64,000 nt of DNA from an uncultured Blautia sp. (GTDB lineage: Bacteria; Bacillota; Clostridia; Lachnospirales; Lachnospiraceae), in the NCBI GenBank assembly GCA_946557785.1, contig CAMNTH010000002.1, positions 62,001 through 126,000 on the forward strand. The letters run 5' to 3'. Every line of letters starts with the position of its first letter. The first letter of the stretch is position 1. Made by a program: the position numbers and the translations under genes. Below the pieces are notes generated by a model. It ran no database searches, had not been told where the DNA came from, and saw only the letters and a program-made list of their open reading frames with translations. Of the stretch, positions 13,533 through 19,681 are shown piece by piece.

Positions 13533-16500
13533 ATGAATTTATGGAAAGGTAGAAAAGAAAACAGGATGAAGGAAAAAATGACATTTCGCCCCATCCCGGG
13601 ACTTAAAAGAGAAGATGAGGAGCAGATGCTCTTAGAGATTATCCGGGTGGCGCAAAGTAACCTTGACAAAACCGAAGGATACATCCAGAGTTTATCAGAA
13701 GAGCTGCATGATCTGATGGAAACCTATGGACCAAAGGACAAGGAGGCTCTGTCCCTCCTGCACAATACGCAGTCGCAGCTTCTGGAAAATAAGCGTGATT
13801 TGCTGCGGTGCCAAAATGCAAGAAAAAAACCGTATTTTGGCAGGATTGATTTTAGGGATTCCAGGCTTCTCAAGGATGAGTCGTATTATGTGGGTCGAGT
13901 GGGAATTTCCAGAAGCGGATCGGAACCTGTTGTAATTGACTGGAGAGCGCCTGTGGCGTCAGTTTATTACGAAAATACCGTAGGACTTTGCAGCTATACG
14001 GTGAAAAACGAGGGGAGCTTTGATATTGAATTAAAGCGTAAGCGGACTTACGAGATTGCAGATGACAAGTTAAAGGATTTTTTTGATTCGGATGTGGTTG
14101 CAAATGACGAGCTTCTGACCAAATATCTGGCGAAGAGCAAGAAAGCGGTTTTAGGAGAGATCATTGCAACCATCCAGAAGGAACAAAATGCCATAATCCG
14201 TAAGTCACCTAAAACAAACATCATCGTGCAGGGTGTGGCAGGCTCAGGAAAGACAACGGTTGCAATGCATCGAATCTCCTATATTCTGTATAATTATGGG
14301 GATGAATTTCGTCCGGAGGATTTTTATATTATTGGAAGCAACCGGATCTTATTGAATTATATTACGGGAGTTCTGCCGGAACTGGATGTATACGGCGTAT
14401 CCCAGATGACCATGGAGCAGTTGTTTGTCAGGCTTCTTTATGAAGATTGGAGCCCAAAGATACACAAGGTCTGTTCTATTGAAAAACAAAGCTATGAATC
14501 CTGCATGAAAGGCAGTTATGAATGGTTTCATGATCTGGAAGCATACTGCCGGGAATACGAATATGAGCATATTCCCAGAGAAGAAATTCGCCTGGAGAAG
14601 AACGGAGTTCTTCTTATGGATGAAAAAACGATTACGGATTATCTGAATGAATATCCGGGAATGTCTATGCAGAGCAAGGCACTTATGCTGAATGAGATGC
14701 TCCTTTCCAGACTGGAAAATGAAATGACAGGAAAATATGTTTCCTATACAAAGACTGAAAAAAAAGAGCTGAATCGGATGTACCGCTGGCACTTTGGAAA
14801 GGATCAGTGGAAGGGAGACATTTTTGAGATTTATGACGATTTTTTGGCATCCCAGTGCAGGAAAGGTAAAAGCATATCTGTTCAGGAAAATACCTATGAT
14901 GTTTACGATCTGGCAGCCCTTTCATATCTTTATAAGCGGATCAAGGAAACAGACGGAATCCGGGAAGCAAGCCATGTGATTATTGACGAGGCACAGGATT
15001 TTGGTATGATGGCATACGCAGCTCTTTCTTATTGTCTGCGTGGCTGTACTTATACAATTATGGGAGATGTGTCCCAGAATATTCATTATAGCTACGGATT
15101 GAATGACTGGAAGGAGCTTAAGGAACTGATCTTAACCGGAACCTATGATGGGTTTGGAATCCTAAAGAAGAGTTACCGGAATACAGTAGAGATTTCGGAT
15201 TTTGCCACAGAAATCCTGCGTCATGGAGATTTTCCGGTTTATCCTGTGGAGCCTATCATCCGCCATGGCAATGAGGTGTGTGTGACGGAATGCATAGACG
15301 GAGACGATATGCTGCTTCAATCCGTAAAAATTATCAAAAACTGGCAGCAGGAAGGGCATGAGACCATTGCGGTAATTTGCCGAGATGCTCAGGAAGCATC
15401 CATGGTGAGCGGCCTTCTTGGACAAGTGATCCGGATTGAGGACAGCAGCCTGGAAACAGCAGAATTTGGAAGCGGTGTCATGGTTCTTCCTGTGGAATAT
15501 ACAAAAGGACTGGAATTTGATGCAGTACTTATATATCATCCCTCTTCCAAAAGCTACCCGGCAAAGGATAGGTATGTAAAGCTTCTCTATGTAGCTGCTA
15601 CCCGTGCGCTGCATGAACTCTCCATTGTTCATACAGGGGATCTGACAGATTTGATCGGGAAGCCGGTGTCAGAGGAAAAGCGAATGCAGTCCCTGGAGGG
15701 ACGGGGGGAGATGGGGCTTTTCAAATATATAAAGCCGGAAAAAGGCGGAAAGGAACAGCATCTTCTGGACGTGGAGACGGGGGATCTTGAACGGGAGCTT
15801 CGTAATCGCTTTGGTCCGAAACCCATTGTGGTACAGCAAAAGAAAAATAGTGTCCGTGAAATTGTTTCCCGAAAAGATCCGGAGGAAAACAAGGTACTGC
15901 ATCCTGCAGGTGCACAAAATCTGCTGAAAAGGAAGAAGCAGGTAAGGGAAGCCCTTCGGAAACCATTAAATACAAGTCCTTTAAATCCGTCCCCATATCC
16001 GTTTTGGGCATGTCCTGACGCAGCTATGCTGCGTCCAAAGGGGCTGATACATATGGATCATTCTATTCGCATTGTACGGAAGATGAAACGATATATTGAC
16101 CTTACAAGCAGATATGGAACTTTGCGGCTGACCCCTCTTGAAGATGGCATGATCCGTGTGCAGTTCCAAAAGGGAGGCTTTGCATCGTTTTCGCCAGGGC
16201 ATTGGAATTATATTCCGGAACATCCTGTTTCATGGACTGCAAAAGAGGGAAAAAAACTGGTGGAGGTTACCGCGGGAAAGCTTATCGTACGGGCAGATAA
16301 AAAGACAGGTGCCCTCAGCTTCTGGAATCTGGAAGGAAAGATGCTGCTTACAGAGAAGGAATCTGGCCCCAGACAGATTGAAGGCAGTGCCGTTCAAAAA
16401 TCCTGGGTTTACTTTGACTGGGAAAGAAAAGAAAGGCTATATGCAAAAGGCATCCTGGCAGAGGATCTGGAACAGATGAACCAGAAGGCCAGATATATAA

Positions 16501-16706
16501 GCTTTGGAGCGTCACAGCTTCGTATGCCGCTTCTGTATTCTGAATATGGATACGGTATCGGCGTAGCAGCGCAGCAGACTGTGATGTGCTGCACAATTCC
16601 TATGTACGGCACTTATCTATATGCAGACGGAATGAATCAAATAGATTATTATTTTCTTTATGGGGGAGATTATAAAACAACCCTTGAATTATATAAAAGG
16701 CTTTAA
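13533..16706 (+). CDS. helD: HelD-type UvrD-like helicase fused in frame to an orphan GH31 N-terminal domain
   Basis: One uninterrupted 1057-codon frame. Residues 1 to about 800 are a HelD-like superfamily 1 helicase: N-terminal coiled arm, Walker A GVAGSGKTT (K240), Walker B VIIDEAQDF (D485), and the C-terminal VEYTKGLEFDAVLI and YVAATRALHEL motifs. HelD removes stalled RNA polymerase from DNA. After a Pro-rich linker, residues 841-1057 resemble the beta-sandwich N-terminal domain of GH31 alpha-glucosidases and end DYYFLYGGDYKTTLELYKRL, exactly where the catalytic barrel would begin; no barrel follows. ATG codons at 13566 or 13578 may be the real start. An internal ATG at 16053 behind AAAGGGG could give a separate 217-residue product. 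Confidence 0.8.
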   Translation: MNLWKGRKENRMKEKMTFRPIPGLKREDEEQMLLEIIRVAQSNLDKTEGYIQSLSEELHDLMETYGPKDKEALSLLHNTQSQLLENKRDLLRCQNARKKPYFGRIDFRDSRLLKDESYYVGRVGISRSGSEPVVIDWRAPVASVYYENTVGLCSYTVKNEGSFDIELKRKRTYEIADDKLKDFFDSDVVANDELLTKYLAKSKKAVLGEIIATIQKEQNAIIRKSPKTNIIVQGVAGSGKTTVAMHRISYILYNYGDEFRPEDFYIIGSNRILLNYITGVLPELDVYGVSQMTMEQLFVRLLYEDWSPKIHKVCSIEKQSYESCMKGSYEWFHDLEAYCREYEYEHIPREEIRLEKNGVLLMDEKTITDYLNEYPGMSMQSKALMLNEMLLSRLENEMTGKYVSYTKTEKKELNRMYRWHFGKDQWKGDIFEIYDDFLASQCRKGKSISVQENTYDVYDLAALSYLYKRIKETDGIREASHVIIDEAQDFGMMAYAALSYCLRGCTYTIMGDVSQNIHYSYGLNDWKELKELILTGTYDGFGILKKSYRNTVEISDFATEILRHGDFPVYPVEPIIRHGNEVCVTECIDGDDMLLQSVKIIKNWQQEGHETIAVICRDAQEASMVSGLLGQVIRIEDSSLETAEFGSGVMVLPVEYTKGLEFDAVLIYHPSSKSYPAKDRYVKLLYVAATRALHELSIVHTGDLTDLIGKPVSEEKRMQSLEGRGEMGLFKYIKPEKGGKEQHLLDVETGDLERELRNRFGPKPIVVQQKKNSVREIVSRKDPEENKVLHPAGAQNLLKRKKQVREALRKPLNTSPLNPSPYPFWACPDAAMLRPKGLIHMDHSIRIVRKMKRYIDLTSRYGTLRLTPLEDGMIRVQFQKGGFASFSPGHWNYIPEHPVSWTAKEGKKLVEVTAGKLIVRADKKTGALSFWNLEGKMLLTEKESGPRQIEGSAVQKSWVYFDWERKERLYAKGILAEDLEQMNQKARYISFGASQLRMPLLYSEYGYGIGVAAQQTVMCCTIPMYGTYLYADGMNQIDYYFLYGGDYKTTLELYKRL
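16017..16055 (+). other. Junction hairpin and internal start site in the helD fusion
   Basis: A perfect 7-bp inverted repeat, GACGCAG/CTGCGTC with a 5-base loop (16017-16035), is followed by AAAGGGG and, nine bases on, ATG at 16053 in the same frame. This looks like a former intergenic region with its own ribosome site now read through. Inference only. Confidence 0.45.
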
Positions 16707-16789: not shown

Positions 16790-19681
16790 ATGAATAGATT
16801 ACTGGAATTTTTTGACAATATGAATGAGCTTGTATATGTTTTGGACATTGAGGACCATAGTCTGGTCTACGTGAATAAAAAGGGACTGGCGATTCTTGGA
16901 CTTTCTTCCATGGAAGAGGCTTCAGGGAAAATGTGCTATGAGCTTTTGCAGAATTCTTCACTGCCCTGTACTACCTGTAATCCGGAGGAACTAAAGACAG
17001 GATATTTTAAGGAATACCGGTATTATAATCCCGTCCTTGACAGATACCTGATGATGAAGGAAACAGTTTTGGAGGAAGACGGAAGGAAGTACAGGCTGGA
17101 AATAGCGATTGATATAGGTGTACAGGTGCAGAGAGGGAATATGGCAGGAAGGTATCAGAACCTGGAGGCGATCATTAATGAAGGGCTTCGGGTAGCACTT
17201 CAGGAAAAAAAGCCTTCCGGCACACTGGCCGTCCTTCTGGAATATCTGGGCAAGGCTCTTAATGGTGAGCGTACCTATATTTTTGAGAAAAATGAAAAAG
17301 GCGGAGATGATAATACTTATGAATGGACTGCAAAGGGAGTGATGCCGGAGAAAGAGAATCTCCAGGATCTTCCTCCTTCGGTATGCGAAAGCTGGTATAA
17401 AAGCTTCAGCGCAGGAAGGCATATTATGATAGAGGATCTGGAAGATATCCGTTTCACCAATCCTGTACAGTATGAGGTGCTTAAGAATCAGAAGATACAT
17501 TCCCTTGTGGTAGTGCCTCTTTATGATAATGAAAAGACCATCGGCTTTTTTGGCGTTGATAATCCTCCGGGGAAGTCTATGGAGTATGCATCCAATATGC
17601 TGCAGATTACTGCGCATTTTATTGTTTCCTGTTTAAAACAGCGCAATCTTGTGAAGCGGCTGGAGGAGAGAAGCTACGATATTTTTAAATCCCTGAATGT
17701 GGATTATGCAGGTATTTTTGAAATCAATTTTGATACGGATAAATGTGAAGTATATAAAAAGATAGAGCAGCCATGGGGATCCATGGATCTGAACCTTGAA
17801 TTTTGTAAAAGCTATGAGAAAGCAATGGAAAATTATATTTCCCTGTATGTATCCGAGTGGGATCAGGAAAACCTGCGGACTGTAACGGAAAAAAGCTATG
17901 TCATTGAACAGCTTAAAACAAAAAAGAAATATTATATGAGATACCAGGTAAAAGAAAATGCACAGAATGCAGAGAATTTTGAAGTACACTTTGCAAGTAT
18001 GGGAAATGACAGCCATAAGGTGATTCTGGCATTTCGAAACGTGGATTCCGTCGTAAAGGAAGAAGAGCAGTATAAGCTGGAAACAAGACAAAATGTGGAG
18101 GACATTTTGGCTGGCTCAAGAACCGGCATGTGGAGCTTGGAGCTTGAGGAGGGCTGCAGCCCCCGGATGTATGCAGACCGGACAATGCGGATGCTTCTGG
18201 GCGTGGAGGAGAATATCGGACCGGAGGAATGCTATCAAAGCTGGTTTTCCAACATTGATCCGGAGTATACAGACCTTGTGCAGGAATCTGTGAAAGAGAT
18301 TTTGGAAAGCGGACGTTCTGAGACCGTTTATCCTTGGAACCATCCAAAGCTTGGGAAGATTTATATACGCTGCGGCGGCGTGCCGGATTCCAGCTTCTCT
18401 AAAAAAGGCGTTTGTTTAAAAGGCTATCATCAGGATATTACAGAGACGATGGTTACGCGGCAAAAGCAGGAGAAAGCTATACTTGAGGCACTTGATAAGG
18501 CTCAGAGGGCAAATTCGGCAAAAAGCGAGTTTCTTTCCCACATGTCCCACGATATCCGTACACCTATTAACGGAATTCTGGGTATGCTTACGATCAGCGA
18601 AAAAAATCCCTGCGATATGGAACGGCAGAGGGAATGCAGAGCTAAGATCAAGATATCTGCAGAGCATCTTTTGTCTCTTATTAACGATGTTCTTGAAATC
18701 AGCAAGCTGGAAAGAGGGGAGATTTCTTTGCAGGAAGAGTCCTTTGACCTTTGTGATCTCCTGGAAAGCTGTATGACCATTACAAGCCCAAGGGCTTCAG
18801 AAATGGGAATTAACCTGGAGATAAAGCCTTTGCACATACAGCATAGAAAGCTGTTGGGAAGCCCTCTTCATATACGGCAGATCCTGATTAACATTATGGG
18901 AAATGCCATTAAATATAATAGGGAAAAAGGCAGTGTCTGGATTCTGGCAGAGGAAATATCTTCAGAAAAGGACATGGCACAATACAGATTTGTAGTGCAG
19001 GATACAGGAATCGGAATAGGGGAAGAGTTCCAGAAAAATATTTTTGAACCCTTTACCCAGGAAAATCATGATGCAAGAACAGAATACAGAGGAACAGGGC
19101 TTGGAATGTCCATTACCAAAAAGCTTGTGGATCAGATGGGGGGAACCATCCAATTGGAGAGCCAGATTGGCATAGGAAGTACTTTTACCGTATGCCTGCC
19201 CATCCGAATAGATACGGAGATAGAGCTTAAAGAGGAGCCTGCGGTTATGGAGGTGGCCGGTGATATTTCCGGAATGAACATTCTTCTGGTAGATGATAAT
19301 GAGATCAATTGTGAAATCGTGCAGTACATCCTGGAGGATGCAGGTGCATCTGTGGCAATTGCAGGAGATGGCCTGGAAGCTGTGGAAACCTTTGAGAAAT
19401 CCCCATGCGGATCATTTGACTGCATTTTAATGGATCTGATGATGCCTGTGATGGACGGAATGGAAGCCTCTAAAACGATCCGCAGCCTGGAGAGAAGTGA
19501 CGCTAAGCGGATTCCTATTATTGCCCTTTCCGCCAATGCTTTTGAAGAAGACGCTAAAGCAGCAAAAGCGGCAGGGATGAATGAACACCTGGCAAAGCCG
19601 GTGGATATTGAGAAAATGCTGAAAACAATTTCTTATTTGGTAAAGGCAGCAGAAGAGAAAGTGCCTGGAGGAAGGTGTTGA
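16790..19681 (+). CDS. Cytosolic PAS-GAF hybrid sensor histidine kinase with receiver domain
   Basis: 963 residues without any membrane segment. Order: PAS-like domain (about 1-110), GAF-like domain (about 125-290, VVPLYDNEKTIGFFGVDN), a middle region with a probable second PAS (about 430-570), HisKA with SHMSHDIRTP (H587), HATPase with NIMGNAIKYN, DTGIGIGEEF and RGTGLGMSI, then a C-terminal receiver with VDDNEINCE and acceptor D882 in LMDLMMPVMDG. It therefore senses an intracellular signal and passes phosphate internally. No Hpt protein, response regulator or output gene lies nearby, so partner and target are unknown. AAGGAG precedes the ATG. Confidence 0.9.
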   Translation: MNRLLEFFDNMNELVYVLDIEDHSLVYVNKKGLAILGLSSMEEASGKMCYELLQNSSLPCTTCNPEELKTGYFKEYRYYNPVLDRYLMMKETVLEEDGRKYRLEIAIDIGVQVQRGNMAGRYQNLEAIINEGLRVALQEKKPSGTLAVLLEYLGKALNGERTYIFEKNEKGGDDNTYEWTAKGVMPEKENLQDLPPSVCESWYKSFSAGRHIMIEDLEDIRFTNPVQYEVLKNQKIHSLVVVPLYDNEKTIGFFGVDNPPGKSMEYASNMLQITAHFIVSCLKQRNLVKRLEERSYDIFKSLNVDYAGIFEINFDTDKCEVYKKIEQPWGSMDLNLEFCKSYEKAMENYISLYVSEWDQENLRTVTEKSYVIEQLKTKKKYYMRYQVKENAQNAENFEVHFASMGNDSHKVILAFRNVDSVVKEEEQYKLETRQNVEDILAGSRTGMWSLELEEGCSPRMYADRTMRMLLGVEENIGPEECYQSWFSNIDPEYTDLVQESVKEILESGRSETVYPWNHPKLGKIYIRCGGVPDSSFSKKGVCLKGYHQDITETMVTRQKQEKAILEALDKAQRANSAKSEFLSHMSHDIRTPINGILGMLTISEKNPCDMERQRECRAKIKISAEHLLSLINDVLEISKLERGEISLQEESFDLCDLLESCMTITSPRASEMGINLEIKPLHIQHRKLLGSPLHIRQILINIMGNAIKYNREKGSVWILAEEISSEKDMAQYRFVVQDTGIGIGEEFQKNIFEPFTQENHDARTEYRGTGLGMSITKKLVDQMGGTIQLESQIGIGSTFTVCLPIRIDTEIELKEEPAVMEVAGDISGMNILLVDDNEINCEIVQYILEDAGASVAIAGDGLEAVETFEKSPCGSFDCILMDLMMPVMDGMEASKTIRSLERSDAKRIPIIALSANAFEEDAKAAKAAGMNEHLAKPVDIEKMLKTISYLVKAAEEKVPGGRC

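Follow-up and report, generated by a model that had tools for sequence, protein, structure and literature searches.

The window analysed here, a stretch of 64,000 nucleotides from an uncultured Blautia sp., carries a gene that joins three parts in one frame: a HelD-type motor, a linker and the N-terminal domain (N-domain) of a GH31 enzyme (Table 1). The frame is real and open, and translation most probably starts at 13566 or 13578. An earlier description of this DNA (the sequence-only reading) had proposed an in-frame fusion of a HelD-type motor with a GH31 N-domain that lacks its barrel, and the open frame together with the profile and fold matches given below confirms this.

Table 1. Features of the fused gene. 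Positions are those of the window and residues those of the open frame.
Feature	Residues	Positions	Strand	Basis or remark
Fused gene: HelD-type motor, linker and GH31 N-domain		13533..16706	+	Open frame
Predicted helical hairpin, where HelD has its secondary-channel arm	26-98	13608..13826	+	Full model, fold search
SF1 motor core, with divergent middle (301-455)	101-712	13833..15668	+	
Walker A, GVAGSGKT	234-241	14232..14255	+	Pattern in 86/89 aligned rows
Walker B/motif II, DEAQD	485-489	14985..14999	+	89/89 rows
Motif VI, ATRALH	689-694	15597..15614	+	89/89 rows
Linker, variable, predicted disordered, mostly basic	713-812	15669..15968	+	
Conserved peptide ahead of the N-domain, NxSPYxFGxxPDxSxLRPxGHSRID	813-842	15969..16058	+	
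GH31 N-terminal beta-sandwich, without catalytic barrel behind	845-1057	16065..16703	+	
Shortened stretch before the GLG position	~942-966	16356..16430	+	Joint alignment
Tail-specific conserved basic positions K972, K985, R987, R997	972-997	16446..16523	+	Enzymes have GLG and a QYL-type segment there

Conservation was read from 89 aligned rows, namely the window protein and 88 relatives. The full-length model, which is weak as a whole (mean pLDDT 71.1, pTM 0.51), predicts the hairpin as a pair of long helices, H26-64 and H70-98. Within the linker, pLDDT blocks lie mostly between 30 and 55 and the mean entropy in the 89-row alignment is 2.55; counted over residues 713-843, the net charge is above zero in 85 of the 89 rows. 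Its low pLDDT and sequence variability suggest that the linker acts as a flexible tether.

The surroundings of the gene point to no operon partner: clustering of the genes lying up to 5 kb from 47 fused loci revealed no conserved neighbour, the widest cluster (an ABC-type ATPase, by eye) occurring at 12 of the 47 loci in varied positions. A hybrid sensor kinase (by eye; 16790-19681) lies 84 bases downstream of the fused gene in the window, and its cluster is found near six of the 46 other fused loci, which is too few, for too common a kind of gene, to indicate a functional link. The six promoter-like sites against 7.3 expected are uninformative, and we build nothing on the five terminator-like sites against 2.7.

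The motor and its place among HelD proteins

Residues up to about 712 match the HelD_BACSU profile (E = 1.1e-103), and the B. subtilis HelD chain matches the motor by sequence (E = 8.5e-68). The top fold matches of the whole chain are 6wvk_H and 6zca_H, both HelD bound to RNA polymerase (E = 2.0e-25); the motor matches the B. subtilis and the M. smegmatis HelD chains, each solved with RNA polymerase. It is the order of the chain that is matched and not its arrangement, since superposition on 6wvk_H gives an rmsd of 15.8 and a TM of 0.36. The SF1 motifs (Walker A, Walker B and III-VI) are present, each pattern in 86-89 of the 89 rows.

HelD proteins insert their N-terminal helical hairpin into the secondary channel of RNA polymerase and a clamp-arm domain into its main channel. 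Residues 301-455 of the motor, which do not align by sequence with B. subtilis HelD, would occupy the expected site of the clamp arm. By homology to the HelD structures, the motor would act on RNA polymerase, and because its motifs are kept and it matches HelD, clearing of the polymerase is likely to be its main job.

The motor nevertheless falls short of the B. subtilis type. It scores 347.7 bits against the NCBIfam equivalog model NF041464 (HelD_BACSU), whose cut-off is 419 bits, while the genome's other HelD, which has no tail, exceeds it with 463.3 bits; the motor therefore belongs to a distinct HelD subfamily and is not a B. subtilis-type equivalog. Three fused relatives score 343-364 bits, and the tail-less relative L153 scores 374.8. 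With B. subtilis HelD (Class I; 6wvk_H) the window protein shares the SF1 motor motifs, the N-terminal hairpin (here predicted) and the sequence and fold match, but the B. subtilis protein, of 774 aa, has neither linker nor GH31 tail. The tail-less HelDs of genomes G233, G156 and G187 are members of the same subfamily with 48-54% motor identity; their frames stop a few residues from the end of the motor homology, with no linker and no tail. A search of the whole genome that carries the fused gene (G000) for HARE-HTH, the domain of the RNA-polymerase delta subunit, gave no match, with a positive B. subtilis control; we regard this as too little basis for claiming a replacement of the delta subunit.

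Distribution, origin and selection of the fusion

In a first sample of 61 genomes, the tail query found seven places in six genomes (46-100% identity, frames of 1019-1175 aa), one genome holding two fused copies (G021). The distribution is patchy, with the fusion in six of 37 genomes of the same genus. A tail profile then detected 33 of 397 genomes of the family, about one in twelve (E of 1e-12 or better), at 34 places. Frames of 1011 aa or more hold 30 of these places, and one of the 30 (G420) has a TAG within the match. The 34th place (G377:C18) was rejected as a fusion, being a true GH31 enzyme. Motor and tail share one stop-free frame at 28 of the 30 loci returned and also in G174 and G305, that is in 30 of the 33 genomes; in the remaining three, the gene is split between frames (G209), a contig ends before the motor (G066) or a frame of 1023 aa lies outside the count (G417). 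Of 45 genome loci, 42 encode both parts in one frame of at least 992 aa; at two others (L063 and L084) the start of the motor lies in another frame, and the last (L101) is a deleted copy.

Two loci look damaged. An apparently deleted copy (L101:215-975) has motor residues of about 337-538 in frame with the last 53 or so residues of the tail; the two matches overlap by 72 bases, and a short early piece of the motor lies in another frame. In G209 (L137:5782-8887), motor and tail occupy two overlapping frames, through either an assembly indel or a real break.

The protein search returned 437 matches, and all of the 120 that were listed also contain UvrD_C_2. Named carrier records include Blautia, Fusicatenibacter, Mediterraneibacter, Marvinbryantia and Lacrimispora, among them Marvinbryantia formatexigens and Lacrimispora saccharolytica An817. 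HelD of any kind is present in at least 132 of the 397 family genomes, a lower bound since two candidates were scored per genome. When 295 genomes of the order were searched, five of the 27 places among the matches listed lay in frames of 1016 aa or longer; all five belong to the same family (f1), and in each a single frame encodes both motor and tail. The remaining 22 have frames of 769-825 aa and, by this length, are probably enzymes. No fusion was thus found outside the family in this sample of 295 genomes, which is no proof of absence. HelD-type motors also occur in other combinations. One protein of 1297 aa (P0100; 74 member sequences) carries a GNAT-like acyltransferase pair (NAT_N, GNAT_C) followed by the HelD motor and the tail in one frame, and another of 1014 aa (L138:6256-9297; G092:C53) has a ketopantoate reductase (ApbA, ApbA_C) N-terminal to a HelD-type motor.

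In a tree of 79 motors, the 46 tail-bearing rows cluster together with the split G209 row (SH-aLRT 100), and the tail-less HelDs of G233, G156, G187 and others branch off as successive outgroups. This tree requires two label changes, one gain and the G209 split; it was built by a quick method with a midpoint root and has some long branches elsewhere. The tail domains (18) likewise separate from enzyme N-domains (19, all from the same order) with 100/100 support. Three early-diverging tails (L167, L170 and L171) sit on motors that are 52-53% identical to the window motor.

Every defined dN/dS value is well below 1 (Nei-Gojobori with Jukes-Cantor correction), although the values are rough because many dS are near or at saturation. 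For the tail we obtained 0.136 (window versus G024), 0.078 (window versus G028) and 0.127 (G024 versus G028), with a range of 0.078-0.180 over six pairs; the motor gave 0.066, 0.061 and 0.047 for the same three pairs in order, and the linker 0.16-0.31 where defined. These data bear on the prosaic alternative that a truncated glycosidase was joined to helD by chance, as a genomic scar or an assembly chimera. A single genome could look so, and broken copies exist in L101 (internal deletion) and G209 (split frames), yet the fusion is shared by many species across many genera, forms a clade of one origin and is under purifying selection. The scar alternative, raised in the sequence-only reading along with the homologue search that decides it, therefore fails, and we give it hardly any credence. 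That a HelD-type motor has functionally captured a GH31 domain is well supported.

The genome of the window has five strong and five weak GH31 loci. An origin of the tail from the genome's own GH31 enzymes was considered and rejected: the sole enzyme that the tail query found there (on contig C3) shares 28% identity with it across some 100 residues, so the tail is no recent cut from a GH31 gene of this genome. A different, tail-less helD adjoins a GH31 gene in the same direction in five of 18 GH31-centred regions, some of them cut by contig ends (L132:7584-12136, on G000:C3, with a gap of 80 bases; L133; L191; L192; L196). Near the pair, G000 and G005 have sugar ABC transporter-like and two-component system-like genes (by eye).

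The tail compared with GH31 enzymes

The predicted model of the tail has the GH31 N-terminal fold, and alpha-xylosidases are its best profile matches. The window tail scores 20.0 bits against Pfam PF13802 (Gal_mutarotas_2), below the gathering cut-off of 27 bits, and 26 of 45 tails match this family at E up to 0.01. The Pfam matches of the fused protein include no GH31 barrel family, and a stop codon follows the N-domain; the catalytic (beta/alpha)8 barrel is thus absent, which sets the tail apart from alpha-xylosidases and related enzymes (5zn6, 6jr6, 5jov and 7kmp).

A joint alignment of 48 tails with 20 enzyme N-domains (taken from the family and order only, one gene being included twice as L007 and L183) reveals how the domain has changed. 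The GLG motif is present in all 20 enzymes and in a single tail (L170). The stretch before its position comprises 58-61 residues in 19 of the enzymes and 33 in one, compared with 23-28 in the 48 tails. Where the enzymes have an xxQYLYQH-type segment, KARYISFG is found exactly in 38 of the 48 tails; tail-specific basic positions also include K904, K907 and R965. Over the same columns, the median net charge is +8 for the tails (47/48 positive) and -11 for the enzymes (0/20 positive); when the first 23 residues are left out, these medians become +4 (41/48 positive) and -12. The early-diverging tails are less basic (L167 -1, L170 +3, L171 +7). Family and order enzymes thus have an acidic N-domain with GLG and a long loop, whereas the tail is basic, without GLG and with most of the loop gone. 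The inversion of charge probably took place on few branches, so that the 48 tails are not independent; as the sequences share ancestry, the charge and loop counts measure retention of a change and not independent events.

It is chiefly the barrel that builds the pocket of GH31 enzymes. The elements lost from the tail are likely to belong to the pocket or to border it, if the shortened stretch is assumed to correspond to the N-loop of glucosidase II. This loop contributes to the glucosidase II pocket, according to passages of PMC12732852, and in LlGH31_u1 Tyr99 of the N-domain of an adjacent protomer can help to form the +1 subsite, according to passages of PMC9061262. Such contributions, the GH31 ancestry with alpha-xylosidases as best matches and the different tail-less helD beside a GH31 gene in five genomes of the genus would suit a metabolite sensor, in which the tail would have kept a binding site for a sugar, a sugar phosphate or a nucleotide sugar and would link the carbohydrate state to recycling of RNA polymerase. 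Against it stand the loss of GLG and of most of the preceding loop, the absence of a barrel that builds most of the pocket and the opposite charge; loop loss alone does not prove that a sugar site is lost, since one enzyme is also short there (33 residues). We regard a sensor as unlikely, and the 'sugar-binding-like' label of the sequence-only reading does not sit well with these differences from the enzyme N-domains.

A basic, probably tethered domain on a HelD-type motor

Across the 89-row alignment, every tail carries a positive net charge and every motor a negative one. Docking on nucleic acid or on an acidic surface of RNA polymerase would be the simplest reading of a basic domain and a basic linker beside an acidic motor. 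We put at about even the chances that the basic GH31 N-domain of Lachnospiraceae HelD-type motors serves for docking on nucleic acid or RNA polymerase. Stalled RNA polymerase would then be engaged by the arm and motor core, as by B. subtilis HelD, and the tethered basic domain, raising local affinity, would catch displaced DNA or RNA or anchor the motor on the polymerase; the motor would presumably pry the polymerase open while the domain holds nucleic acid or RNA polymerase.

The basic domain could instead serve protein-protein contacts that involve neither nucleic acid nor RNA polymerase, with the domain docking on another acidic protein or joining motors to each other. The N-domain beta-sheet takes part in the hexamer contacts of LlGH31_u1, as passages of PMC9061262 describe, yet the fused loci offer no conserved neighbour and no known partner, and nucleic acid fits the basicity equally well; we consider such a module somewhat improbable, only slightly less so than the sensor. 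The domain might also merely stabilize or solubilize the motor, as a structural cap with no binding partner. Its conserved fold core is compatible with such a passive role, which the tail-specific conserved segments (KARYISFG and the basic positions), beyond those common with the enzymes, and the linker that separates the domain from the motor, variable in length and predicted to be disordered, make very improbable.

The sequence-only reading held that such a protein would be new. The architecture has been seen before, although we found no study of a fusion of HelD with a GH31 N-domain in the main texts of the open-licence literature. Some of these proteins already bear the name 'DUF4968 domain-containing protein', and PMC7749167 (2020), presumably the paper of Newing et al., used CDART categories of that name (74 and 37 hits) to characterize HelD-like parts. 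In its main text, DUF4968 occurs twice, both times in a methods passage; these proteins probably have the architecture of the window protein, and the role of the domain is not discussed in the passages concerned. PMC8655204 (2021) classifies HelD, and DUF4968 is absent from its main text.

According to passages of PMC12802891, stalled RNA polymerase is cleared by HelD factors, and B. subtilis HelD raises rifampicin resistance; Lachnospiraceae are described in PMC8655204 as abundant gut microbes. This family includes a HelD clade with an extra domain on what is likely such a polymerase-clearing motor. More tentatively, and with less conviction than for docking as such, we propose that the domain was captured once, lost its barrel and had its charge inverted to become a nucleic-acid grip, which would define a new HelD class with a tethered ex-glycosidase domain. 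The fusion clearly illustrates how an enzyme domain can be put to new use once its active-site partner is gone; the L170 tail, which has kept GLG, is a living intermediate, and the tail-less sister motors provide ready-made controls.
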